In this document: positions 3,914-29,346 of the stretch, in pieces
Position numbering within the stretch: the first letter of the stretch is position 1
How the letters are laid out: each line of letters starts with the position of its first letter
Assembly: GCA_011523305.1 (NCBI GenBank)
Contig: WTHB01000069.1
Coordinates: forward strand, 1-33,863
Direction: 5' to 3'
Length of the DNA: 33,863 nt
Source: Planctomycetaceae bacterium
GTDB lineage: Bacteria; Planctomycetota; Planctomycetia; Pirellulales; UBA1268
The notes under the pieces: model-generated
Database searches by the model: none
Told to the model about the DNA's origin: nothing
The model's input: the letters and a program-made list of their open reading frames with translations, nothing else
Translations under genes and position numbers: made by a program

Positions 3914-4299
3914 AATACGTTCTGAGTGATATTGCCGGCGAGCATTACCGGCTGGCGACCGGCGAGTGGACGACTGAAATTGATGAGGGCGAGCGGTTTG
4001 GTCACGATGCCGCCAAGGTTCGGCAGGAGGAGCTGCTGGCCCAGGGGGTGCATACCCAGATCGTAGAAACCCACGGCAGGAAACGGCATACCAGCGAGGC
4101 GATGGTCAAACGGACTGCCGCTGCCCTGGCTGCCCTGGAAGAGGCGTGGGTCGGGAAAACGGTTGGGATCGGCTACGAAGTTGATGTTGAGGCTGGCCGG
4201 TTCAATCTGACATTTGAGCCGATCGACCACCCCGAGTACGCGGTTCAGGTGAACGTAGACGTTGCCAACATCCTCGTTGGGGAAGGAGATGAAAACTAA
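3910..4299 (+). CDS. hypothetical protein
   Basis: 129 residues from the ATG at 3910, which overlaps the previous stop (ATGA). It is acidic, soluble and unrecognised. It reads as an alpha/beta protein with a helical centre (RTAAALAALEEAWVGK) and a beta-rich C-terminal half (GIGYEVDVEAGRFNLTF, YAVQVNVDVANILVG). It is coupled to the genes on both sides (ATGA before, TAATG after). Confidence 0.65.
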   Translation: MKYVLSDIAGEHYRLATGEWTTEIDEGERFGHDAAKVRQEELLAQGVHTQIVETHGRKRHTSEAMVKRTAAALAALEEAWVGKTVGIGYEVDVEAGRFNLTFEPIDHPEYAVQVNVDVANILVGEGDEN

Positions 4300-4595
4300 T
4301 GAACACCGACAACCTCCTCACCCCCGATGAAGCAATCGCCGAGATCGGCTGCTCGAAGCAGACCTTTTGGCGAGCCTTGAAACGGGCAGGCCGCGACGAG
4401 ATCGTGGTCTACCTGTTCAACAAAATGCTGATCCGAAAGGACCGGCTCAACAGAATCAGGAAGCACTACTACCAGCGTGGCAGCGAGGCGGCTCATAGAG
4501 TGGCCGTTGAGTCAGGCCGGGCCGGGGGAACCGCAAAGGGAATCAACGCTCGGAAGCGTGCCGCCGGGCGTGGCAAGGCAGGCAGCAAAGCCTAA
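4299..4595 (+). CDS. helix-turn-helix DNA-binding protein
   Basis: The segment LLTPDEAIAEIGCSKQTFWR (residues 6-25) is a MerR/excisionase-type helix-turn-helix, followed by a beta-wing-like stretch EIVVYLFNKMLIRKDRL and a very basic glycine-rich tail (GRAGGTAKGINARKRAAGRG) suited to DNA. Total length is 98 residues. As the last gene of the rightward cluster it may be an excisionase or a regulator of the cluster. The start overlaps the previous stop (TAATG). Its 3' end overlaps the converging HNH gene by 53 bp; no terminator is seen between them. Confidence 0.7.
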   Translation: MNTDNLLTPDEAIAEIGCSKQTFWRALKRAGRDEIVVYLFNKMLIRKDRLNRIRKHYYQRGSEAAHRVAVESGRAGGTAKGINARKRAAGRGKAGSKA

Positions 4596-4827
4596 GATTG
4601 TCGAGGGCGTCGGTGCCCCCCTTCGATTTTTCGACGATGTGGTCGACCTGCGCCTTCTCGGTGATCACGCACCCGCAGAAGCAACAGATACCCCCGTCCC
4701 TAGCAATCACAGCGAGCCGCGTCCGCCGCCAAGCCGCAGAGCAATAGCCTCGGGCGGCAGCGGTGGGCCGGCTCTCTTTCTTTGGCCGCCTGCGATCGGC
4801 CTGCCAACTAGCGATTCGCTTCGGCAT
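4543..4827 (-). CDS. HNH endonuclease
   Basis: The core CCFCGCVITEKAQVDHIVEK, followed by GG..AL.NL.L.C.PCH..RH, is a typical zinc-supported HNH (beta-beta-alpha metal) nuclease. Cysteines at C-x2-C and C-x2-C would hold zinc, and DH with the later N and H form the active site. The 94-residue protein has a basic N-terminal arm (KRIASWQADRRRPKKES). Phage HNH proteins of this size sit beside terminases or act as homing-type nickases; no terminase is in the window. It is the last gene of the long leftward run and overlaps the upstream gene by 20 bp. Confidence 0.88.
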   Translation of the reverse strand: MPKRIASWQADRRRPKKESRPTAAARGYCSAAWRRTRLAVIARDGGICCFCGCVITEKAQVDHIVEKSKGGTDALDNLRLCCLPCHARRHASER

Positions 4828-9965: not shown

Positions 9966-10398
9966 GAACCTCCCTTTCGCTGGTGAGCTCGGCCTCCATG
10001 TAGGAGGGCACATTGCCCTCTGAGAAAATTGGATCATTGAGTTCGCCGTGAATGCACAGAAACCCTCGTGCTCCACTGCTCTTGACCACTCGGCGAGCCT
10101 CTTCGTCTTCAGCCGACCAGCCTGGGTGGCCGTTGCGGCCCTCGCGGATGTCGGCGGCTCGCTGGCGGATTTCCTCGGGCGTCGGGTCGAACTCTCGCTG
10201 GAAACGTCCTGTCCGGTAGCCACTCTTGCGGCGAGGCAGACCAATGTGCTGACCATATGCGGTCACCATGTCTGCCGTCACGCCGAACTCCTGAGCCATT
10301 TCCATCCTAGTTGTCAGGCTGTCGTTCCACATCGACAGAAACTTTGCCTTCCGGCTGCTCATTCGCTTGTAAATGTCTTCGATCTTCTGCTTACGCAT
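9925..10398 (-). CDS. HTH-like protein with a PTPEEIR motif
   Basis: 157 residues from the ATG at 10398, which overlaps the end of the fucose synthase gene by 8 bp. RMEMAQEFGVTADMVTAYGQ (residues about 31-50) reads as a helix-turn-helix followed by the basic HIGLPRRKSGYRTG. PTPEEIRQRAADIREG (about 72-87) matches the motif in the protein at 7915-8220. A likely DNA-binding accessory protein. The C-terminal part is charged and has no recognised motif. Confidence 0.65.
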   Translation of the reverse strand: MRKQKIEDIYKRMSSRKAKFLSMWNDSLTTRMEMAQEFGVTADMVTAYGQHIGLPRRKSGYRTGRFQREFDPTPEEIRQRAADIREGRNGHPGWSAEDEEARRVVKSSGARGFLCIHGELNDPIFSEGNVPSYMEAELTSEREVHAQRRRWREEATT

Positions 10399-11347
10399 TG
10401 GTAGCCTCCATGCTTCGTTGCTTCCTGTACCACTCCACCGTCGCTGTGAGACCGTCCTCGAAATCCGTGGTGGGCTCCCAGCCAAGTTCGTCCTTCGCCC
10501 GCCGGCCATCGACCGCTCGTCGGGGCTGACCATCGGGCTGTGTTGTGTCGAACGTGATCGCACCACCAAACCCGCAGTGGCGAGCGATCTTGTGTGCCAG
10601 CACCTCGATCGTCACTTCGCCTGAGCCACCGAGGTTGATCGGGTGCGGTGTCTCGACGACCTCGGCGGCCTTAACGATTGCAGCGGCCGCGTCGTCGGCG
10701 TAGAGAAACTCGCGAGAGCAGCGGCCAGTGCCCCAGAGGGAAACGTGCTCCTCGCCGTTCTCGACGGCCTCGACGAATCGACGAATCATGGCCGGGATGA
10801 CGTGACTGTCATCGATGTCAAAATTGTCGGCGGGACCGTAGAGATTCGTCGGAATCAGGTAGGCGGCGGGGATGCCGTACTGCTCGTGAATCGCCTGGAG
10901 GCCGACGCCGATGGCCCGCTTGGCGATGCCGTATGGGGCATTGGTCTCCTCGGGGAAGCCGCTGAATAGGTCGGCCTCGATGAACGGCATGCGGTCGACA
11001 ACCTTTGGGTAGGAGCAGACCGTGCCGACATAGACGATCTTCTCGACGCTTGCGGCCACGCTCATCTCCAGCACATTGACGGCCATTGCCATGTTGTCGA
11101 GCCAGATCCGGCCGGGCATTCGGCGGTTCTTACCGATGCCGCCGACGTTGGCCGCGAGGTGAATGACCACCTCGGGCCGATACATTGCCCAGAGTTCTGC
11201 CACCTCATGCACTACCGTCAAATCGAGGTGGTGCCGCTGCGGAGCGTGAACGCCTTCACAGCCGGCCTGGTAGAGTTTCGCCAGCACATTGCGGCCCAGG
11301 AAGCCGTTGCCGCCGGTCACCAGAATGCGTTTTGAGGTCAGGTCCAT
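10391..11347 (-). CDS. fcl: GDP-L-fucose synthase
   Basis: 318 residues, the usual length. It makes GDP-L-fucose from GDP-4-keto-6-deoxy-mannose by epimerisation and NADPH reduction. GGNGFLG (12-18) binds the cofactor. GTVCSYP carries Thr109 in place of the usual serine and Cys111; YGIAK gives Tyr139 and Lys143; SHVIPAMIRR gives His182. This is the full set known from E. coli WcaG, with one Ser-to-Thr change. It follows gmd by 31 bp, and the gap contains an AGGCTAC element and no good Shine-Dalgarno. The two enzymes together complete the pathway from GDP-mannose. Confidence 0.95.
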   Translation of the reverse strand: MDLTSKRILVTGGNGFLGRNVLAKLYQAGCEGVHAPQRHHLDLTVVHEVAELWAMYRPEVVIHLAANVGGIGKNRRMPGRIWLDNMAMAVNVLEMSVAASVEKIVYVGTVCSYPKVVDRMPFIEADLFSGFPEETNAPYGIAKRAIGVGLQAIHEQYGIPAAYLIPTNLYGPADNFDIDDSHVIPAMIRRFVEAVENGEEHVSLWGTGRCSREFLYADDAAAAIVKAAEVVETPHPINLGGSGEVTIEVLAHKIARHCGFGGAITFDTTQPDGQPRRAVDGRRAKDELGWEPTTDFEDGLTATVEWYRKQRSMEATNA

Positions 11348-11362
11348 GATGGATACTATTGT

Positions 11363-11377
11363 GAGGTGAGTAGCCTA
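11363..11377 (-). promoter_or_regulatory. TAGGCTAC element before fcl
   Basis: TAGGCTACTCACCTC on the - strand lies in the 31-bp gap between gmd and fcl, 16 bases before the fcl ATG. It matches the first eight bases of the recurrent junction element, then diverges. The fcl leader has no clear ribosome site, so the element may mark a short-leader transcript; this is inference. Confidence 0.35.
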
Positions 11378-11378
11378 A

Positions 11379-12410
11379 TCAGGCAAGAGCAGAACCTTCA
11401 GGTTTTCCGTTGAGGGCGATCAGCATCTCCATCTTCGCGACCGACTTGTCATGCTCGACCATCATGTCAACGAGGTCGCCGAATGTGTGGGCCGGTTTCC
11501 AGCCGAGGGTCTGGGCAGCCTTGGCAGGGTTGCCAAGCAAGAGGTCGACCTCTGCTGGCCTCTGCTGCGATGGATCGAATGCAACGTGTTCGTGGGCGAG
11601 CATCCCCAGCCGGCTGAACACCGCATCACAGAACTCAGCGACTGAATGTGTCTCGCCGCTGGCGACGACATAGTCGTCTGGGGACTCCTGCTGGAGCATC
11701 AGCCACATCGCCTCAACGTAGTCTCCGGCAAAGCCCCAGTCCCGTTTGGCGTCGAGGTTGCCGAGGTAGAGTTTGTCTTGCAGGCCGAGCTTGATGCGGG
11801 TGGCGGCCCTGGTGATCTTCCGCGTGACAAACGTCTCGCCTCGGCGTGGGCTCTCGTGGTTGAACAGGATGCCGCAGGAGGCGTGGAGGCCGTATGCCTC
11901 GCGGTAATTGACCGTGGCCCAGTGGGCGTACACTTTCGCCACGCCGTAGGGGCTGCGAGGGTGAAACGGCGTGGCCTCAGTTTGCGGCGTCTCGACGACC
12001 TTGCCGAACATCTCTGAACTAGACGCCTGGTAAAAGCGGATCTGCCGGCCTGTGACATCCTGAACTTCGCGGATGGCCTCTAGCATCCGCAGGGTGCCGA
12101 GGGCAGTCACGTCCGCGGTGTAGGTTGGCTGGGCGAAGCTGACGCTAACGTGGCTCTGGGCGGCGAGATTGTAGACCTCGTGCGGCTGTATTTCGCGGAG
12201 TAGTCGCATCAGGCCGTTGCCATCCGACAGATCGCCGTAGTGGAGCGTCACCCCCGGCGGATCGCTGAACATCAGGTGCTCAATGCGTTGCGTCGAGAAC
12301 GTGCTCGACCGGCGGATCACACCGTGAACGTCATACCCCTTGGCAATCAGCAGTTCGGCCAGGTAGGAGCCGTCCTGGCCGGTGATCCCGGTGATCAGTG
12401 CGCGCTTCAC
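11379..12410 (-). CDS. gmd: GDP-mannose 4,6-dehydratase
   Basis: 343 residues from a GTG at 12410 that overlaps the stop of the small upstream gene (GTGA) with AGAGG upstream. It converts GDP-mannose to GDP-4-keto-6-deoxy-D-mannose. GITGQDG (8-14) is the NADP-binding loop; QASSSEMFG gives Ser132 and Glu133; RSPYGVAK gives Tyr155 and Lys159, the SDR catalytic set. The [14 protein letters not shown] segment is typical of the family and takes part in cofactor binding and tetramer contacts. It is the first sugar-nucleotide enzyme of the cassette. Confidence 0.96.
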
Positions 12411-12556
12411 GTTGCAGCGACCTCTTTCCACATGCGGAGAAGTTCTCGCAGCCGCTCGATCTCATCGGCGGCCTCTTCCCGTAGGCCACCCTTGCCGGCG
12501 ATGCCGTGCCGCAGGCGGGCAACGAGGTCGGTTTGTTCAATTTCTTGTTCAGCCAT
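12407..12556 (-). CDS. small helical protein upstream of gmd
   Basis: A 49-residue gene ([18 protein letters not shown]...) that ends in a GTGA overlap with gmd. The centre, [20 protein letters not shown], is a charged heptad-like helix of the type common in very short phage proteins. It starts 2 bp after the previous stop, without a clear Shine-Dalgarno, so it is probably translated by coupling. The tight joins on both sides are the main evidence that it is real. Confidence 0.65.
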
Positions 12557-17178: not shown

Positions 17179-17182
17179 TTTC

Positions 17183-17283
17183 TACCGCGCTTACCGCGCC
17201 TCCGTGCTGACCGTGGTTGTGACTGACCCCTATTTTTCTAGTACTTTCGTTACCTCTACCGCGATTACCGCACTTACCGCGAA
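17183..17283. repeat. TACCGCGNN 9-bp iteron-like repeats
   Basis: Two direct 9-bp units lie at 17183-17200 and three more at 17257-17283 (one reads TACCGCACT), with a half unit TACCTC at 17251. They sit in the 138-bp gap between prim-pol and the UvrD-like helicase, one of the largest gaps in the leftward region. An AT-rich stretch (CCTATTTTTCTAGTACTTTCG) separates the two groups. Iterons next to an AT-rich tract and replication genes suggest an origin or an initiator/operator site. Confidence 0.65.
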
Positions 17284-17316
17284 ATTTTCCAGGTGAAAAC
17301 ACGCTCCCCACGCACG

Positions 17317-18972
17317 TTATATAGTGGTTTTTGCGGTAGCCGGTGCCGGCGTGAACGAAGAGGTGCTTTTCGTCTCCTCTTCACCGCTGGCGATGGCCTC
17401 CAACTGCTCAAGGTGCCGCAGGCTGAATCGGACAAACCGGCGGACGATGCCGCCCTCGCCCTCGGAGCGACCGATGATGAACTGCTTCTCGCCGGTACGC
17501 TCCAAGAGCGACCGCTTGAGCCGCAGCTTCTCAACGTCCGCGATGGCCCGCTTGCCTGAGTTGGCGATCTCCCAGGCTCGGGTCCACGAGAACCAGAGTT
17601 CCCATACACCGTCGCGGTTCCTGACCCATGACGGCATACCCTGAATGTCCGGCTGCCCCGGCTCGGCGTCTTCGTCGTCCACGTCGGGCCGAGGGCACAT
17701 CGAGAGGGCGTCGAGGAACCAGCCGGCCACCGCCGCGTACCGGCAGTTCTCGGCTGTCGCGGCCTCAGAGACCTTGGCGTCCATCAACTTGGCCTTCATG
17801 CCAATCACGGCCTCCTGGCCTCGCCGTTTGCCTCGACCGTTCCAGATAACGGTCCACTCATCTGGGTTCGCATCGACGACAACTGTGTGGGTGGCCTCCA
17901 GAATCGCCTCGGCCACCTTCGACGCGGATCTGTACTGCTCGGCATTCAGGGTCACGCCGATTCGCCGCGTCTCCTTGAGGTCGTCGCGGTACACGGGCAG
18001 GGTGACGACATAGGTGACAGGGTCGCCGTGAATGACCTTCAGCGTCCACTCGCCCGGCCACCACTCCCCATCGCGGTACTCCAGGCCGTTCACCGCCACG
18101 CGGCCTTCTGGGGTCTTGCCTGCCCGCTGCCGCTTGGCCCACGCCACGGCATCCTGCCAGATTTGATCAATCTCGGCGAGCGACTTCGGAGGATTGCAGA
18201 ACCGAAGATTCGCCCCGATTAGTTGGCACAGCAGCGTCTGCTGCTGATCGGGGTCTTCAATGTTTTGCAGTTGCATAGCGTGGGCATTCGCATGCTGGAG
18301 CAGGTGGTCATGCCGACCGCCTGCCGAGATGCCACCCTTCAGTATGTCATTGCCGCGAGGCTTCCCTGTGCCTCCGGTCCTCTCGGCCTCATCAACGATT
18401 CGCTGCATCAGCGGCTCGGGAATGTCAGCCGGCTCGCAGTCGTCGGGTGTCATGCCGTTGACCCACGAGTAAGACACGCCGCTGGCGTGAGTGCTCGGCG
18501 GGAACACCGACTGGTTTCCTTTCTCGCCGCCCCCAATGCGGATCTCTAACTCGTCAACCTTGATGACGGCGCAGTCAGGCAGCCGCGAGTTCCAGCGAAA
18601 GACGCGGTGCGTCGATCTCTTGCTGGTGAACGTCGGCGTGTCTATGGTGTCGAGCTTGTAGCGATTGGCCGTCTCGCGGCCCTCTTCGTTGTCGAACTCG
18701 ATGTCGATCACGCCCGAGTCGGGGCCGTTCTGGACGCCGACGTTTCGCTTGCCGCTCACATCGAGCGTCTCATAGATCGCCTCCTCATCAGTAGTTGCGT
18801 TCGTCTGCCACGCCTTGCCCACGGGGTGCTTGCCAGGGCTGCGACACTCTTTCCGCTGGTAACAGGTGCAAACGCCGTTGGCGTCGACGCCGTAGTTGAC
18901 GACGACTCGCCACTCCAACGCGGCATATTTCGCCGCCCACTGAAACGCATCTTCATTGACCGATCTGCTCAT
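17317..18972 (-). CDS. bifunctional prim-pol domain protein (primase/polymerase)
   Basis: 551 residues. The N-terminal 200 match the prim-pol (archaeo-eukaryotic primase) family: WAAKYAALEWRVV, a cysteine-containing insert CTCYQRKECRSPGKHPVGKAW, GVQNGPDSGVIDIEFD with Asp90 and Glu92 as the metal site, STHRVFRW, and NQSVFPPSTHASGVSYSW. The rest (about 200-551) is a helical region and a C-terminal domain that I cannot name, with no helicase Walker A. It should prime and extend DNA at the phage origin. The ATG has AAGGAT upstream. Confidence 0.9.
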   Translation of the reverse strand: MSRSVNEDAFQWAAKYAALEWRVVVNYGVDANGVCTCYQRKECRSPGKHPVGKAWQTNATTDEEAIYETLDVSGKRNVGVQNGPDSGVIDIEFDNEEGRETANRYKLDTIDTPTFTSKRSTHRVFRWNSRLPDCAVIKVDELEIRIGGGEKGNQSVFPPSTHASGVSYSWVNGMTPDDCEPADIPEPLMQRIVDEAERTGGTGKPRGNDILKGGISAGGRHDHLLQHANAHAMQLQNIEDPDQQQTLLCQLIGANLRFCNPPKSLAEIDQIWQDAVAWAKRQRAGKTPEGRVAVNGLEYRDGEWWPGEWTLKVIHGDPVTYVVTLPVYRDDLKETRRIGVTLNAEQYRSASKVAEAILEATHTVVVDANPDEWTVIWNGRGKRRGQEAVIGMKAKLMDAKVSEAATAENCRYAAVAGWFLDALSMCPRPDVDDEDAEPGQPDIQGMPSWVRNRDGVWELWFSWTRAWEIANSGKRAIADVEKLRLKRSLLERTGEKQFIIGRSEGEGGIVRRFVRFSLRHLEQLEAIASGEEETKSTSSFTPAPATAKTTI

Positions 18973-19137: not shown

Positions 19138-19902
19138 CTAGCCTTCTCCTCCGTTGCCAAGAGGTCGCGCCTCGAACATCGCCATCAGCGGCTCGTGGTA
19201 GGTAACGCGAGCCACCTCACCCTGCTCCTCGCTGATTGTTCCGACCAGACGCGGCACGATCACCGAGTACGGCTGACCGGCCTTGCTCTTGGTCTTCTCC
19301 AGGCGAAGCCCAACAACGGCCTCCCACGGGAAGCAGGGCAACCGCTTCATGAATGGAGCGAGCCCAGCCAGTGACCCCGGCCCCACTGTGACCAGCAGCG
19401 GCCAGACATCGCCCTCGCGGAGGATCGCCAGGATTCGGCTTTCCTTCGCCTTGCGGCCAGTGCCGTTTCGAGCCGACCCATAGCCAAACTCCTTTGAGCC
19501 TGAGAGGGCAACCCAGTCATAGGTGTCATCACCGGTGCGGAACTTCTCCAGGGCATCGGGATCGATGCTCCCGAGGTCATTGCCGACACGATGACCAACC
19601 TTGAGGTCGTGGCTTATCAACACAGGCCGCATATCGGACGGGTCGTCCTGCGGCCACAGCACGCCTCGTTTTCCCACGGCAACCAGCAGACCGACGATCT
19701 CGTCGCACGTCTCCTCGTTCCCGTTGAAATCGAACGACCACGTTGTCCCGCCACCCAGCGGTGTGCGGACCTTCACGAGATCACGTTCGCTCATTGGCTC
19801 GCCGTTTAGGTTCGCCCTGAGAATCGCCGCCTGCCGCGAATTCGGCGAGAGCGACGAGTAGGAGAGTTCACCGCCCGTGGCGGTACTAATAGCAGTGCTC
19901 AT
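19138..19902 (-). CDS. hypothetical protein of the replication block
   Basis: 254 residues, unrecognised. N-terminal residues 1-35 are low-complexity and polar. The rest reads as a mixed alpha/beta globular protein with notable stretches TPLGGGTTWSFDFNG, VALSGSKEFGYGSAR, LVTVGPGSLAGLAPFMKRLP and PYSVIVPRLVG. No catalytic motif is clear. Its place between prim-pol and a SNF2-like helicase suggests a DNA-metabolism role such as single-strand binding or annealing. AGGAGGAAGAC before the ATG at 19902 is a strong ribosome site. Confidence 0.75.
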   Translation of the reverse strand: MSTAISTATGGELSYSSLSPNSRQAAILRANLNGEPMSERDLVKVRTPLGGGTTWSFDFNGNEETCDEIVGLLVAVGKRGVLWPQDDPSDMRPVLISHDLKVGHRVGNDLGSIDPDALEKFRTGDDTYDWVALSGSKEFGYGSARNGTGRKAKESRILAILREGDVWPLLVTVGPGSLAGLAPFMKRLPCFPWEAVVGLRLEKTKSKAGQPYSVIVPRLVGTISEEQGEVARVTYHEPLMAMFEARPLGNGGEG

Positions 19903-19960: not shown

Positions 19961-20415
19961 AATTTGCTCTGAGTGAACTCGCTCACGAGTCCCTCGAGAG
20001 CAGTTCCCTCTGAGAACGGCCGGCGGGTGTCCTTCCCCGCCTCGTTGGCCGCCTCCCGCAGCACGCTTTTTAGGCGTGCTGTGTTGACCTGGGTGAGAAC
20101 GTCCGTGTCCAAACCCATGCCACGCGCTGCCTCCAGCACCGCGTCTCGCCGGTCCATCGGCACCGAGAGGTGGTGATCCATCTCCACCCGCCATGACCGA
20201 CCAGCGACCTTGACTCCATCGATGCCGCTGGCCGTCAGCTCTTCCACAGCCAGATCCTCCAGCCGCGATCGTCGTGCCTCGATTCGCTTGAGTTCGATCT
20301 TGAGTTCGTCACGCCGCTTATCGAGCGCGGTGACCTCTTCAAGCGTTGCTGCCAGCCCCGTGGGCATCGGCGGCTCGTCGATTTCGGAATCCTTCCAGAA
20401 CTCGTGTGATGACAT
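19942..20415 (-). CDS. hypothetical coiled-coil phage protein
   Basis: 157 residues from the ATG at 20415 (AGGAGAAGG upstream). Residues about 25-60 (LEEVTALDKRRDELKIELKR) form a coiled coil, followed by VEELTASGIDGVKVAGRSWR and a domain with SVPMDRRDAVLEAARGMGLD. The layout (coiled coil, beta hairpin, small helical domain) resembles small phage proteins that accompany replication genes, but I cannot name the family. It starts 77 bp inside the helicase gene and ends in a terminator hairpin. Confidence 0.7.
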   Translation of the reverse strand: MSSHEFWKDSEIDEPPMPTGLAATLEEVTALDKRRDELKIELKRIEARRSRLEDLAVEELTASGIDGVKVAGRSWRVEMDHHLSVPMDRRDAVLEAARGMGLDTDVLTQVNTARLKSVLREAANEAGKDTRRPFSEGTALEGLVSEFTQSKLRHRSV

Positions 20416-21766
20416 CCTTCTTCTCCTTGAGGGCTTCGTAGACTCCACGCTCTACGGTTGGCTTTGTCCTGCCGGGTATCCTTGCCACCAGCGAATAGAA
20501 TCGCGTGGCGTTTTCCTGCCCAGGTCGGTGCAACCGTGCGACCGCCTGGAGGAACTCTGAGAGAGAGTGGCCGACTGAGTAGAAGACGCCGAGACTGGCC
20601 CGCGTCAGGTCGATGCCGATGCCGCCGCTCTGAATCTGTGCAACCAATGTGCTCGTCTTCCCCGACTGCCATTCGCAAAGGTCATTCATCTTACCCGAGA
20701 GTTCGCTCACGCTGCGGCCATGCGATTGACATTCTGCCCTGACACTATCGATGTCGTCGCGGAAGCGGCAGAACACGACCAGCGGCTCATCGACTGGAAT
20801 ATCGGTCAGTAGTTCGCCGAGGCGAGCCTGCTTGGCTGGCCGATCGACAAGCCGGTACGGCGTGCTGTCCTCATCGAGCCGGCAGAAGCCGCCGCACACT
20901 TGCAGCAACCGGAGTACACCGACCATCGCGTTGGCCGGCGTGATCGTGCCGTCGTCGACATCAGCGGCGAACTCGCTGACCAACTCGCGGTAGACGCGGG
21001 CCTCCTCGGTGGTCAGGTCGAACTCCAGCGACTCGTGGGTCAGCTCGGGCAGCCACTTGATCACCTGCGCGGTGGTTCGTCGAAACGTGGTCTCGGCAAT
21101 GATGCGGCTCATCTCGGCCTGATTCCGCCAGCCGATGACCATGCCGGGAATGGCCGGATTTGACACGCTGTACCGCGCTCGGAACGCCGTGAATGATTTG
21201 CCCCATATGGGGCTCCCTACGGCCCACCAGACGCCGTATGCGTCCAAGAGGTTCTGAGCCAGCAGGGTGCCGCTCATGCCCAGAAATCGCGTCTCAGGGG
21301 CTCCCTGGGCCATCTTCTTGGCCCACTTGGCCGCCCGGCCACGGTGGCTCTTCAGTCGGTGAACCTCGTCCCAGACTACCAGTGACCACTTGGTTTTCCC
21401 AATTTCCGGAATTCGCCAAAGCGATTCGTAATTCCCCACCACCACTAGGGGGGTGGTGTCAGCGAGGGCAGCGGTCAGAGCCTCGCCCTTCTTTTTGCTG
21501 GTCGCCTGGGTCAGCGGCAGCACGCGGATTCCAGGCAGCCACATTGGCAACTGCTTCTCGGTCCACGCCTCAATCACCGCCTTGGGGCAGCCGACCAGCA
21601 CTCGGAAGTGAGCCGGGTAGCCTATTTGGAGCGACCGAAGTGTTTCGATCGCCACGCGGGTTTTCCCTGTGCCCATGCCCATGTCGAGCAGGGCCGGCTC
21701 GCCGGAATCAAAGCGGTCGAGCACCCACTCGTGGGCCTCCCGCTGATGCTGCCACATCTCGCTCAT
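20339..21766 (-). CDS. SNF2-like superfamily 2 helicase/ATPase
   Basis: 475 residues from the ATG at 21766 (AGGAGGCAGGTG upstream; a start nine codons earlier is possible). LLDMGMGTGKT (about 26-36) is Walker A; VVWDEVHRLKS is the DExH box (133-136); FLGMSGTLLAQN is motif III; QIQSGGIGIDLTRA and FLQAVARLHRPGQ are motifs V and VI. The combination is typical of phage SNF2/DEAD-type proteins. It probably remodels or unwinds DNA during replication. Two copies of the AGGNTACCCG element lie inside the coding sequence (20469-20483 and 21610-21624). Confidence 0.93.
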   Translation of the reverse strand: MSEMWQHQREAHEWVLDRFDSGEPALLDMGMGTGKTRVAIETLRSLQIGYPAHFRVLVGCPKAVIEAWTEKQLPMWLPGIRVLPLTQATSKKKGEALTAALADTTPLVVVGNYESLWRIPEIGKTKWSLVVWDEVHRLKSHRGRAAKWAKKMAQGAPETRFLGMSGTLLAQNLLDAYGVWWAVGSPIWGKSFTAFRARYSVSNPAIPGMVIGWRNQAEMSRIIAETTFRRTTAQVIKWLPELTHESLEFDLTTEEARVYRELVSEFAADVDDGTITPANAMVGVLRLLQVCGGFCRLDEDSTPYRLVDRPAKQARLGELLTDIPVDEPLVVFCRFRDDIDSVRAECQSHGRSVSELSGKMNDLCEWQSGKTSTLVAQIQSGGIGIDLTRASLGVFYSVGHSLSEFLQAVARLHRPGQENATRFYSLVARIPGRTKPTVERGVYEALKEKKDVITRVLEGFRNRRAADAHGAGSNA

Positions 21767-21798
21767 CACCTGCCTCCTTGCTGGTGCGGTCAATATAG

Positions 21799-21850: not shown

Positions 21851-22396
21851 CTACCCCTCGTAGAATTTGCGGATGCCCCGCTTGGTGCCATCGAGCTCTT
21901 TCTCGATGATGTTGCCCCGGCGGGCCTTGGCTGAATCCAGCGAGTAGATCCACCACCGCGACTGCGACTGCTGACTGCCCCTTGCGTCGTCGATGGGCTT
22001 CCGTGCCCGAATCACGCCTTCTTCGGCATATCTGACGGCCAGTTTTGGGTCGATTCGCAGCAGATCGGCGACCTCACCGGTCCCGATAGCATCCTTGAAA
22101 GTGATCGGCTCGACCTTCGCCAGTTTCTTCAGCATCGGCCTTCGGTCGTCAACCTTTGTTCGGGGCCGCCGCAGCCAAGGGTCGTCGGCGGCCCGCATCT
22201 CCAGGTACTCGGCGAACTCTCGCTCGCAGTCGTGGAGCGAGTAGATTTTGATCGAGCGGCTCTTCGGCCCCCAGCCTCCCTCGATCTCTTTGTACTTCAG
22301 TTGGCCGGCTGCGGCCATCTTCGCGATCCGCGTCCAATGGACGCCGATCACGGCTGCGGCCTCACCTGTCGAAAGTGCCAGGTCTGGTAGGTGCAT
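21851..22396 (-). CDS. twin-HTH regulatory protein
   Basis: 181 residues with two excisionase/MerR-type helix-turn-helix segments: LALSTGEAAAVIGVHWTRIA (6-25), followed by a wing with KYKEIEGGWG, and DAIGTGEVADLLRIDPKLAV (about 102-121), followed by EEGVIRARK. It is divergent from the promoter at 22433 that should drive the integrase operon, so it may act as repressor, excisionase or both. The C-terminus is charged. The ATG at 22396 has AGGTGATTC upstream. Confidence 0.75.
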   Translation of the reverse strand: MHLPDLALSTGEAAAVIGVHWTRIAKMAAAGQLKYKEIEGGWGPKSRSIKIYSLHDCEREFAEYLEMRAADDPWLRRPRTKVDDRRPMLKKLAKVEPITFKDAIGTGEVADLLRIDPKLAVRYAEEGVIRARKPIDDARGSQQSQSRWWIYSLDSAKARRGNIIEKELDGTKRGIRKFYEG

Positions 22397-22432
22397 GAAT
22401 CACCTGTTTTGCTTTCCGCCTTTTAATCGTCC

Positions 22433-22461
22433 TTGACAACGGGCTCGGAGTGGAGGATAGT
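22433..22461 (+). promoter_or_regulatory. sigma70-like promoter for the integrase operon
   Basis: TTGACA (22433-22438) and GATAGT (22456-22461) are 17 bp apart. It lies in the 136-bp divergent region, about 70 bp before the first + gene. Confidence 0.65.
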
Positions 22462-22471
22462 GGACTCGAAC

Positions 22472-22494
22472 TTTGCACGCACGACGCCTGCAAA
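22472..22494. promoter_or_regulatory. possible operator, TTTGCA-N11-TGCAAA
   Basis: A perfect 6-bp inverted repeat with an 11-bp centre lies just after the expected transcription start of the promoter at 22433. Spacing of half-sites by 17 bp (about 1.6 turns) fits a dimeric repressor. The binding protein is not known; the divergent twin-HTH protein is a candidate. Confidence 0.4.
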
Positions 22495-22532
22495 ACAAGA
22501 GTCTCACGATCTGAGGAAGGAGTCAAGCACCC

Positions 22533-22877
22533 ATGAAGCATCTCATTTACATCGAGTGGACCGATCGAAAAACGACCGACACAGACGAGCGTGTCATCGA
22601 CGCGGAAAACGAGCGAGACGCGATGCTCTTCGCCGTCGCAGAGTGGTGGCACGAGATCGGTAATCGCTACCCCACCTGCCGCATTCTCTCTGTCGCCTTT
22701 GCCGATTTTGAGGCCATGCCTGATGCCGCCGTTTCAATTACGCCGGAACTTGCGGTCTGTGCCGTTTCTGACAGCAGTCCCAGTCGTGCAGGGCCGTGGT
22801 GGAAAAAAGTTGGCCTGCCGTTCAGAGGAACGGTTGACGGTGATGGTTTCATCCCCAGTTTTGGTGGAACACCATGA
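22533..22877 (+). CDS. hypothetical protein, first gene of the integrase operon
   Basis: 114 residues. It begins MKHLIYIEWTDRKTTDTDER, a beta strand followed by VIDAENERDAMLFAVAEWWH, a helix with paired tryptophans, then CRILSVAFADFEAMPDAA. The C-terminal 45 residues look disordered (SDSSPSRAGPWWKK). No family recognised. The ATG has GAAGGAG upstream. It ends 22 bp before the integrase start and is probably co-transcribed with it. Confidence 0.7.
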   Translation: MKHLIYIEWTDRKTTDTDERVIDAENERDAMLFAVAEWWHEIGNRYPTCRILSVAFADFEAMPDAAVSITPELAVCAVSDSSPSRAGPWWKKVGLPFRGTVDGDGFIPSFGGTP

Positions 22878-22899
22878 CCCACAGAACGGAGGGCTTGCC

Positions 22900-23751
22900 A
22901 TGCTTCTCGCTGATCTACTAGTCGACCTGTACTGGCCGCTTCGAGGCATCGGCGACCGCACGGTCACTCTTTACCGCTACTCGCTCGATGCATGGGCCGA
23001 GATGCTCGGTCGCCCTCCATGCCTCGACGATTGCGACGAGACGGCGGTGGCTCGGTTTCTGTCTTACCGCGGTCGTCACCGATCGCCAGCCACTGTCGCG
23101 AAGGATCGTGCTCAGATCGTCGCCTTGTGGTCGTTCGCTGCGAAGCGCGGCCTGGTCACGAAGTGGCCCGAGGTTCGCCGAATCAAGGTGCCTGAGCGAG
23201 TGCCCGAGGCGTGGACCGCCGAGGAGTTTCGTCGGCTGCTGGCCTCGGCCTCGCTGGAGGTCGTGACCATTGGCCGCGTGCCTGCCGCGTGCTGGTGGCG
23301 CGCGTTCTTGCTGCTGGCCTATGACACAGCGGAACGTGTGTCTGCGATGCGCCATCTCCGCTGGTGCGACGTTCGAGACGAAGACGTGATCTTCAGGGCC
23401 GAGACGCGAAAGGGGAACACTCGGGACATCTGCCGCCAGATAGGGGACCACACCCGCGATGCCATCGACGCGATCAGGGAGCCGAGGCGAGATCTAGTCT
23501 TCCCTTGGGACCGTGGCGAGTCTTATTTGTGGAAACGGCTGGGCATCATTCAGAGGAGGGCCGGGCTGCCCGATGACCGCCGCAGCAAATTTCACCGCAT
23601 CAGGAGAACGACCGCTTCTTTTTACGCAGCCGCCGGCCACAGTGCCCAGCAGTTGCTTGATCACTCATCGCCGGCTGTCACTCGGCGGTATCTCGACCCC
23701 AGGATCGTCCGGTCGATCGCCGCCCCCGATGTCCTTCCGAAGGTCGGATGA
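22900..23751 (+). CDS. int: tyrosine recombinase / phage integrase
   Basis: 283 residues from the ATG at 22900, which has ACGGAGGG upstream; the open frame reaches further back but overlaps the preceding gene. An N-terminal core-binding domain (about 1-95) with TVTLYRYSLDAWAEML is followed by the catalytic domain. All expected residues are visible: Arg146 in AERVSAMRHLRW, Lys171 in ETRKGNT, His232 and Arg235 in FHRIRRT, His255 in LLDHSS and the nucleophile Tyr264 in TRRYLDP. It catalyses site-specific integration or excision. No att core could be identified. Its 3' end overlaps a small antisense gene. Confidence 0.94.
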   Translation: MLLADLLVDLYWPLRGIGDRTVTLYRYSLDAWAEMLGRPPCLDDCDETAVARFLSYRGRHRSPATVAKDRAQIVALWSFAAKRGLVTKWPEVRRIKVPERVPEAWTAEEFRRLLASASLEVVTIGRVPAACWWRAFLLLAYDTAERVSAMRHLRWCDVRDEDVIFRAETRKGNTRDICRQIGDHTRDAIDAIREPRRDLVFPWDRGESYLWKRLGIIQRRAGLPDDRRSKFHRIRRTTASFYAAAGHSAQQLLDHSSPAVTRRYLDPRIVRSIAAPDVLPKVG

Positions 23752-26532: not shown

Positions 26533-29346
26533 TTACGGCATTGCCACTAGTTCTTCAAAAACGCGGCCTCTGCCTGCGGAGGAGTTACTCGCAGAACTTC
26601 CTGGCGAGCCGATGGCTACTACAGCCCCTGAGCCACTGAGTTGGACTGAACTTCCGCTGTAATCCCCTGTCGCCTCGCCTGGTATGTCGTCACCGACTTG
26701 AACCCAAAACGAACCGCTCCACTCATAGATCCTCGTAGTCCCCGAGTTGCTGCCATTTGGGTCGCTGCCACGAATGCCGACAGCCAGGCGAGAGCCGTCA
26801 GCTGAAAGTGACACAGACCACCCAGCGTAATCGTAATTGGTGGACCCTGTGATATCTGCACCCAGTTGTGACCACGCGGACCCGCTCCATGAGTACACCC
26901 GTGCATACCCCGTGTCGGTCCCCGCGGTGTCGTCCTGTGGCGAGCCCACTGCCAGCCTTGTGCCATCGCTGGAGAGCGAGATGTCATAGCCAAACAGGCC
27001 GCCTGAGGCGGCGGGCTCGATCGTCGTGCCTCTTGGGGACCAGGCAGACCCGGTCCACTCCTTCACTTCGACTGCGTAGAAAGAATCGCGTCCGATTGCG
27101 GAACCTTGCAGGCTTACCGCTGCGACAGTCCCGTCACCATTCACGGCAACTTTGTTGCCGTAGTAGACCCACGTTCCGCTTCCAACATTCGAGACAGCCA
27201 CGTTCCCGCCGATCTGCGAGAAACTCCCTGATGAGATATCAAACGCCGTGACGGCAGCTTGGTAGTTAGTTCCGGGCGTCCCTCCAGCGAATGGCACGCC
27301 GACGACGACGGTCGAACCGTCACGCGAAATGGCAGCGTCACCCCGGTCTGCCGAGGGCTCGCTGCTCCAGTAGAAGCTCACGGGACTGTTTACACGCGAC
27401 CAAGTTCCGTTTGAGTTCGTGAACAACCGCAGGCCAGACGGGATGCCGCTTCCAGTCTGACGACCAAGTGCTACGAACTTGTCACCTGTGTCGCTAACGG
27501 AAACCGCAAAGCCAAAGCGATCATTCCCTGTCGACATGATGCTTGAATTGGTGGCCTCAGACCACACCGACCCGTTGTTCGAGAACACCCTGGTCGTGTT
27601 GCTGCCAGGCTCACCAAGAACAAGCGTGGTTGCGTTGTAGTCAAGAGCGACCGCCGAACCAAGCTCGGCAGATGCCACCGTGCCGTTGATCGCGCTGTGA
27701 ACAAGTGACCAACTATAATCATAGGTGGTCACAATGTAATCTTGATTCAGCTGACTGCCACTCTCGGTGGTGATCACATCACCCGTCTCAGAGAGTAGAT
27801 CATATGAGTCTGAGACTGTCAGGGTGGCTATGTTACTCGTTACGTTGAGTGCGCCTGGCGCAGAAACAATCGCGCGATACAGCGTGCCATTCTGGCTCGC
27901 CGGTACGCCGCTGAGAGCGTATGACGTAGTGTTTGCCCCAGTGATTGTGTCCCAAGTGACTCCGCTGTCGCTGCTGTCCTGCCACTGATACGAGGGAGAC
28001 GAACCGTCGCTGACCGTGGCCGCGACGGTGAAGTTCCCACTGCCGCCGATTCCAACCGAGAGGTTTTGCGGCTGGATGGTGACCGTGATCTCGGGGTTCC
28101 ATGACCCCAACGCTGATCGCCGCCAGCCTTGCGAAGTGTGTACATACAGGTAGTTGTCGTCGTATGCCATGTCGCCGGGATCGCCGGGATCACCAGGATC
28201 ACTTGGCGGGTTGGCCCAACTAATCCCTCCCTGGTTTGTCGCCGAGACGGTAATGGCGTTGTCCACCGTCGAGACGGATATACCCTGGCCGCCGACGAGG
28301 GACAGCGACCCCGACTCACCGTTGAGCGTCGAAAACGTCTGAGTCGACGAGATCGTCAACGCGCTTCCAACCTGAGTTATCTGCACGTTGTTTCCGCCGG
28401 CTAACGTGACTAACCCACTAAGGCCATTCACTGAGTTGACAATGGATGTCGGTATGCTGTCGCTATCGGCCAAACGAACCCATTGTCCTGCGTGTGCGTA
28501 GTATGCTGCACCTGTTCCTAGCCCATCATAGTTGTGGACATGAGCAAACATCCCGTGATAACTTGCCGCATCAGGGAGGTCTGTCAGCGTGTTATAGATG
28601 TTGCTGTACAGAATCTTGCCAGTGCCCAGGTCGAGCGTCGTGCCGTTTGACACAAGCGCGGTGACCGAATCCGCAGTCCACGCCGATCCATTCCAGACGA
28701 GAGCCTGGCCGTTCGCCGGAGACATCGTCGTGTTGACATCAAGAAGGTCGGTGACGTTTGCGATGCTTGCCTGACCGATTGTTCCGATGGTCAGGTTTTG
28801 CCCGTCGGACGATATGTTGATGTTTGTTCCGCCGACCAGACTAATATTTCCTGACAACGTGTTTACGGTTGTGCCGGCTGTCGTGTTAGCCGCTACCCAC
28901 GCTGTTCCGTTCCACGACAGTGTCTGCCCGACCGTTGGCGACACATTCGACACATCAGAGAGGTCTGAGAGGTTTGACACATCGTCGGCGGCAGCCCACA
29001 CGGTTCCGTTCCACGACAGTGTCTGCCCGACCGTTGGCGACACGTTCGATACATCAGCGAGGTCAGCGATGTTTGCCACATCGTCGTCGGCCGCCCACAC
29101 TGTTCCGTTCCACGACAGTGTCTGCCCGACCGTTGGCGACACATTCGACACATCAGAGAGGTCTGAGAGGTTTACTGGGATGGAGAGTTCGGCGACATTC
29201 GCCGAGATTGTCGAGACGCCGCCACTGCTGTTGATTGAGATGCCGGTTCCAGCCGCAATCTGGAGTTCCGGCAGTGGCCCCACGACCGTTCCTGTGCTGA
29301 CGTTTATCGTCTGCCCGTCAACTGATGTTACCTGTATATCGCTCAC
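26533..29346 (-). CDS. large tail-fibre/adhesin with internal repeats, Ig-like and propeller-like domains
   Basis: 937 residues, GTG start overlapping the previous stop (GTGA). Order: an N-terminal segment with VDGQTINVSTG; three nearly identical 33-residue repeats (VSNVSPTVGQTLSWNGT, residues about 56-150) and a diverged fourth; a region ending in SDPGDPGDPGD and YDDNYLYVHTSQGWRRSALG; an Ig-like domain (VTIQPQNLSVGIGGSGNF, YRAIVSAPG); then from about 540 to the end FG-GAP-like or WD-like blades (SGSAWSQLGADITG, SADGSRLAVGIRGSDP). It should form the host-binding fibre. Confidence 0.88.
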   Translation of the reverse strand: MSDIQVTSVDGQTINVSTGTVVGPLPELQIAAGTGISINSSGGVSTISANVAELSIPVNLSDLSDVSNVSPTVGQTLSWNGTVWAADDDVANIADLADVSNVSPTVGQTLSWNGTVWAAADDVSNLSDLSDVSNVSPTVGQTLSWNGTAWVAANTTAGTTVNTLSGNISLVGGTNINISSDGQNLTIGTIGQASIANVTDLLDVNTTMSPANGQALVWNGSAWTADSVTALVSNGTTLDLGTGKILYSNIYNTLTDLPDAASYHGMFAHVHNYDGLGTGAAYYAHAGQWVRLADSDSIPTSIVNSVNGLSGLVTLAGGNNVQITQVGSALTISSTQTFSTLNGESGSLSLVGGQGISVSTVDNAITVSATNQGGISWANPPSDPGDPGDPGDMAYDDNYLYVHTSQGWRRSALGSWNPEITVTIQPQNLSVGIGGSGNFTVAATVSDGSSPSYQWQDSSDSGVTWDTITGANTTSYALSGVPASQNGTLYRAIVSAPGALNVTSNIATLTVSDSYDLLSETGDVITTESGSQLNQDYIVTTYDYSWSLVHSAINGTVASAELGSAVALDYNATTLVLGEPGSNTTRVFSNNGSVWSEATNSSIMSTGNDRFGFAVSVSDTGDKFVALGRQTGSGIPSGLRLFTNSNGTWSRVNSPVSFYWSSEPSADRGDAAISRDGSTVVVGVPFAGGTPGTNYQAAVTAFDISSGSFSQIGGNVAVSNVGSGTWVYYGNKVAVNGDGTVAAVSLQGSAIGRDSFYAVEVKEWTGSAWSPRGTTIEPAASGGLFGYDISLSSDGTRLAVGSPQDDTAGTDTGYARVYSWSGSAWSQLGADITGSTNYDYAGWSVSLSADGSRLAVGIRGSDPNGSNSGTTRIYEWSGSFWVQVGDDIPGEATGDYSGSSVQLSGSGAVVAIGSPGSSASNSSAGRGRVFEELVAMP
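28898..29180 (-). repeat. three 99-bp direct repeats inside the fibre gene
   Basis: Copies start at 28898, 28997 and 29096 (plus coordinates), exactly 99 bp apart, sharing GTTCCGTTCCACGACAGTGT and the following 20 bases without change. Each encodes a 33-residue unit, so copy-number change keeps the frame. The third copy ends at about 29180 where it runs into unique sequence. Confidence 0.95.

Follow-up and report, generated by a model that had tools for sequence, protein, structure and literature searches.

A candidate iteron-type replication origin between the prim-pol and helicase genes of an uncultured planctomycete phage

Results

A candidate origin in a phage contig

The 138-bp non-coding gap at 17179-17316, between the prim-pol and helicase genes of an uncultured phage, is probably the replication origin of that phage and appears to be of the iteron type. 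The element keeps its place in dozens of related uncultured phages though the repeat sequence changes, suggesting that it is a probable start of phage DNA copying. The window, meaning the whole stretch of 33,863 nucleotides that was analyzed, is a 33.9-kb phage contig within a 3.49-Mb planctomycete MAG. It corresponds to the viral contig IMGVR_UViG_3300033112_000221, which is equally long and whose prim-pol and helicase are identical to those of the window. Related loci were also found in relatives named as Planctomycetota and Pirellulales bacteria, suggesting that the host is probably a planctomycete of the order Pirellulales. No similar DNA was found in deposited phages. Deposited relatives of the helicase were less than 30% identical or partial, and the match to deposited prim-pol relatives was confined to about the N-terminal half.

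Several other features of the contig were observed. An integrase gene on the plus strand adjoins an excisionase-like HTH gene (21851-23751), which suggests a temperate phage. Two neighboring nucleotide-sugar epimerase/dehydratase genes lie at 10391-12431, and a 99-bp tandem repeat of 2.8 copies (28896-29173) lies within a 937-aa tail/FG-GAP-like gene. The 5' end of the contig (1-276) is a tandem 13-bp array of GCAGGCACCACAG in 13 copies followed by a 21-bp array. A CsrA-family gene (PF02599; 14831-15034, minus strand) lies downstream of the helicase, and 25 related loci have a relative of this gene in a comparable position.

Iterons in the gap

The gap runs from the helicase start (17178) to the prim-pol stop (17317) with both genes on the minus strand, and the placement of the repeats by a sequence-only reading of this DNA, in a non-coding gap between two replication genes, was borne out. 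The gap contains five TACCGC(G/A)NN units, two and then three, with exact 9-bp spacing within each group and 65 bp between the two groups (17192 to 17257; Table 1). On the minus (gene) strand the unit reads NNCGCGGTA. The same reading had described one motif occurring twice and then three times at 9-bp spacing. The five units and their spacing hold, but exact TACCGCG occurs four times, the middle unit of the triplet being TACCGCACT.

Table 1. Coordinates of the gap features and of the replication genes in the window
Feature	Position	Strand	Sequence or description
Helicase, UvrD/Rep-type SF1, 546 aa	15538..17178	-	
Right iteron group	17181..17198	-	CGCGGTAAG CGCGGTAGA; ends 2 bp before the helicase start codon
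Unit 1	17183		TACCGCGCT
Unit 2	17192		TACCGCGCC
Possible degenerate half-repeat	17207..17215	-	CACGGTCAG; read from sequence, weak
Central 29-bp element	17221..17249	-	CGAAAGTACTAG-aaaaa-TAGGGGTCAGTC; degenerate copy of the conserved dyad, AT-rich stretch
Left iteron group, prim-pol side	17255..17281	-	CGCGGTAAG TGCGGTAAT CGCGGTAGA; three units, 9-bp spacing
Unit 3	17257		TACCGCGAT
Unit 4	17266		TACCGCACT
Unit 5	17275		TACCGCGAA
Prim-pol, 551 aa	17317..18972	-	PF09250; pRN1 primase match, SaPI-Rep-like domain (293-405), wHTH-like domain (about 409-530)
254-aa protein, phrog_23155	19138..19902	-	Replication-module member, conserved
SNF2-type helicase	20339..21793	-	Conserved in module

The repeats are real and beyond chance. 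Exact TACCGCG occurs 12 times in the window as compared to 2.9 expected, and none of 2000 dinucleotide shuffles of the gap reached both its 6-mer count and its tandem count. Among 3373 stretches of 138 bp in the window, both repeat measures were reached solely by the gap locus and the 5'-end tandem array, and no tandem copies of the 9-bp unit of the gap were found elsewhere in the window. We therefore give almost no weight to the repeats being a functionless product of chance or slippage. Simple tandem repeats do occur elsewhere in the contig, as in the 5'-end array, but the shuffles argue against this explanation and the conservation among relatives already contradicts it, as diverged relatives have the same position and layout with a different repeat sequence.

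A conserved dyad in the AT-rich core

The AT-rich stretch that had been noted between the repeats is indeed AT-rich, at 30-35% GC (20-bp steps, 17224 to 17258) as compared to about 60% for the window. It is not merely so, however, but is a degenerate copy of a conserved 29-bp dyad. In the gaps of relatives the consensus dyad is CGTAAGTNNTTG-n5-CAANNACTTACG, and in most cases it lies 40-65 bp ahead of the helicase start. The core of the window is identical to the element of one relative (L030) at 21/29 positions, an identity equalled by 3 of 20000 shuffles, and the two lie 42 and 41 bp from the start codon, respectively. The dyad model R1, built from sequence only, found no match to the window's own core, which is too degenerate.

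A dyad of at least 13/20 was present in 45 of 66 gaps (68%). The corresponding share was 1.3% for 3769 stretches taken elsewhere in the same loci and 3.6% for shuffles. At least 15/20 was reached by 36% of gaps and by no controls. The consensus was read from these same gaps, so the controls are the fair measure of its enrichment. About a third of the gaps had no recognizable dyad. When 24 viral records (28-75 kb) were scanned with R1, a match was found in 23 and always at the gap, giving one locus per genome, with two matches within the gap in some records. The R1 E-values are biased for sequences used in the model, and the telling point is that there were no matches elsewhere. In four loci (L056, L070, L073 and L090) the gap apparently contains two dyad copies about 75-85 bp apart.

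Conservation of the gap and its repeats across related phages

A search with the helicase alignment A1 yielded about 80 viral loci. In nearly all of them prim-pol was directly upstream of the helicase, in the order prim-pol, gap, UvrD-type helicase. The module was conserved, with the helicase in 86 loci, prim-pol in 81, the 254-aa protein in 74, the SNF2 protein in 71 and a 168-aa protein in 63. Most gaps hold a clustered short repeat around the dyad, and its sequence varies by lineage: GCGGTA in L003 and L021, GTGGTTTT in L028 and L029, GGTCATCC in L030, GCGGGTTT-type in L036 and L050, CCGTCCA in L062 and L068, GTAGCCT in L101 and AGAGGTATT in L085. By a motif-free count, 52% of 67 gaps and 10% of control stretches had a 6-mer in four or more copies, and the figures for 6-mers in tandem at 7-10 bp were 58% and 26%, respectively. 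Several gaps showed no clear repeats in the simple repeat count.

In the window, and in about half of 10 whole records, the gap was the locus with the densest repeats and tandem pairs. Repeat cores picked by eye were densest at the gap locus in G432, G436, G440, G442 and G446, and for one core in G439. The chosen cores showed no clear clustering in G424, G426, G433 and G434, making the repeat claim in these four weaker than the dyad claim.

Two further observations concern the prim-pol end of the gap. In seven loci (L015, L062, L065, L068, L069, L072 and L096) the left repeats fall within the end of the prim-pol coding sequence, where they code for a portion of the C-terminal tail (..SPSTV..); in this clade the DNA signal apparently shapes a protein end. 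A TATATA motif occurs near the prim-pol stop (window 17317-17323) in 14 of 64 loci as compared to 0.8% of control stretches.

The element goes with prim-pol

In three loci other genes separate prim-pol from the helicase, and in each the repeats were found close by on the 3' side of prim-pol. L091 has, 82-108 bp past the prim-pol stop, a long inverted repeat together with a dyad match, and its helicase lies at a distance of 2.2 kb. In L018 a repeat array lies at 4353-4668 with the prim-pol stop at 4250, and in L092 copies of TGTGCGCGAGC lie at 4165-4427 around the prim-pol stop at 4203. Four distant planctomycete prim-pols were also tested. Repeats were found 3' of the gene in two of them, each in a fetched locus without a UvrD homologue: L142 has three GGGACACGT-type units spaced at 9 bp, and L137 has six copies of GGACAC. 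In the other two (L139 and L140) repeats 3' of the gene were unconvincing. As the repeats lie by the 3' end of prim-pol in L091, L092, L018, L142 and L137, the element goes with prim-pol, a placement that an operator of whatever gene comes after prim-pol would share.

Prim-pol as the candidate initiator

The prim-pol matched PF09250 with an E-value of 1.2e-20. For its full model (pLDDT 90), Z was 12.6 against the pRN1 primase (9aam), 9.2 against the NrS-1 prim-pol and 6.1 against RepB'. In the model of the C-terminus, with a pLDDT of 93, one domain is like SaPIBov1 Rep (Z 6.8, 2.6 A over 87 residues). The C-terminus is a helix-helix-beta-hairpin-helix in a confident model, with wHTH-like matches at a middling Z of 3-5.6 to a relaxosome protein bound to oriT, CRP-type and PadR regulators and ORC2. 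These domain matches come from a VIA-align second look; with Foldseek by itself, neither the full prim-pol model nor the C-terminus had a significant match in the PDB, and a profile search of PDB sequences gave no match. The Z values of the C-terminal domains are middling and would speak at most for their fold, not for binding.

No recognized DNA-binding domain was found in the 254-aa protein at 19138, which the sequence-only reading had named alongside prim-pol as a possible binder, and the prim-pol C-terminus appears to be the better binder candidate of the two. A fused helicase domain was absent from 49 prim-pols by Pfam. In a partial Mantel test of repeat sequence against prim-pol domain the wHTH domain gave 0.386 and the catalytic domain 0.352. 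Repeat similarity therefore tracks both domains about equally, and the binder is not singled out.

The origin reading and its rivals

The gap has three of the features looked for in an iteron origin: at least three clustered short direct repeats at one locus (five units), an adjoining AT-rich segment, and a place next to a replication protein gene, here between prim-pol and the helicase with synteny in relatives. The proposal of an origin in the sequence-only reading was strengthened by the single locus, the place beside prim-pol, the core dyad, the lineage-specific repeats and the pRN1-like prim-pol with a predicted winged helix. GC skew, which had been put forward as a check with a lack of skew change counted against an origin, spoke against it: neither the window nor any of 10 relatives showed a change at the site. 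This test has little power because the flanking genes on either side are on one strand and skew follows gene strand. In the mechanism that we propose, an initiator, for which the best candidate is prim-pol through its predicted C-terminal winged helix, or a partner, would bind the 9-bp iterons flanking the 29-bp core. The AT-rich core would then open, the bubble would be widened by the UvrD-type helicase, possibly helped by the SNF2 protein, and prim-pol would lay down the first strands. Iteron binding, core opening, priming and origin activity are what we infer from this arrangement.

The main rival, which we regard as unlikely, is that the repeats are an operator through which a phage regulator controls transcription of the helicase or of the operon after prim-pol, the dyad being a dimeric repressor site. 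Operators usually have dyads and short repeats, and in the window, as in many relatives, the right repeats reach up to the start codon of the helicase. With all genes involved on one strand the element always precedes a gene, and the TATATA motif near the prim-pol stop would also suit an operator. However, there is one locus per genome with no second tandem array at other promoters, and where genes are inserted between the two, the element stays by prim-pol and not by the helicase. Between 16900 and 17700 no sigma-70-like promoter or terminator was found by consensus, a negative that carries little weight when the host is a planctomycete.

Highly improbable, in our view, is that the core acts as RNA or ssDNA, either as a helicase-leader hairpin or as a priming hairpin like the ssi of RSF1010, with the repeats as accessories. 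The arms do form near-perfect hairpins with compensatory changes in the L023-L028 clade, and mismatched pairs (69 G.T vs 38 A.C) together with better folding of the sense strand in 30 of 46 are suggestive only. Pairing over all relatives was barely above shuffles, however (72.8 vs 70.2%, 17/500), the window core scarcely folds (-0.8 kcal/mol), and Rfam gave no match. The dyad as a conserved hairpin overall was rejected, as pairing over all relatives was near shuffle level and a per-column test gave the same result.

If the gap is an origin, a large phage group without cultured members gains a defined candidate of 138 bp, together with a protein that can be named as its candidate initiator. The related loci would also provide a natural series of about 60 diverged origin/prim-pol pairs in which repeat sequence can be compared with the DNA-binding domain. 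A more specific reading, which we put forward tentatively and with some doubt, is a two-part origin in widespread uncultured planctomycete phages. In such an origin a shared factor would read the conserved 29-bp dyad, and the fast-changing, lineage-specific iterons that frame it would be read by the prim-pol winged helix, so that the same enzyme would recognize the origin, prime and synthesize DNA while the helicases are separate. Such an origin may not have been described before; we found no paper describing this element, or iterons with a phage prim-pol of this kind.

Comparison with known replication systems

Short direct repeats just 3' of a replication gene are also found in SaPI and SCCmec, where the initiator helicase binds iterons that lie 3' of its own gene (PMC7581432). 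Residues 293-405 of the phage prim-pol resemble SaPIBov1 Rep, but the repeats follow the initiator helicase there and prim-pol in the phage. The satellite phage P4 has a multidomain replication protein, alpha, whose winged helix binds origin repeats (as described in PMC4234260). The phage prim-pol is likewise multidomain and may have a winged helix, as predicted from its model, whereas in alpha the primase is of the Toprim type and the helicase is fused. RSF1010 oriV combines iterons and inverted-repeat elements with a separate primase and helicase (as described in PMC4234260), as the phage element does, and RepB' is structurally related to the phage prim-pol. RSF1010 differs in its dedicated iteron protein, RepC, and in ssi hairpins that lie apart from the iterons. 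NrS-1 has a phage prim-pol of the same fold, which primes at TTTGGTTA or GTG sites (PMC8718748); 5'-TTTGGTTA-3' had 0 matches in the window. Winged helices of prim-pols have been suggested to recognize origins (PMC5862659).

The closest studied relative is pRN1 of Sulfolobus, with the ORF904 prim-pol. This plasmid depends on a cis element that directly follows its prim-pol gene and takes the form of a stem-loop, with no iterons (PMC4234260). Its replication protein has a C-terminal winged helix, and similar systems in phages were proposed in the same paper (PMC4234260). The phage resembles pRN1 in the element 3' of the prim-pol gene, in a prim-pol of the same fold (PF09250; 9aam) and perhaps in a C-terminal winged helix, predicted in the phage protein with matches at a middling Z. 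However, pRN1 has a 100-nt stem-loop and no iterons whereas the phage has iterons flanking a 29-bp dyad, and the fused SF3 helicase of pRN1 is replaced by separate SF1 and SNF2 helicases. The gap contains no strong inverted repeat and no pRN1-like stem-loop of about 100 nt. Since the fused SF3 helicase and the large stem-loop are absent, we class the element as an iteron origin variant and not as a pRN1-type replicon. If this is correct, the phage would have a prim-pol replicon that uses iterons where pRN1 uses a stem-loop.
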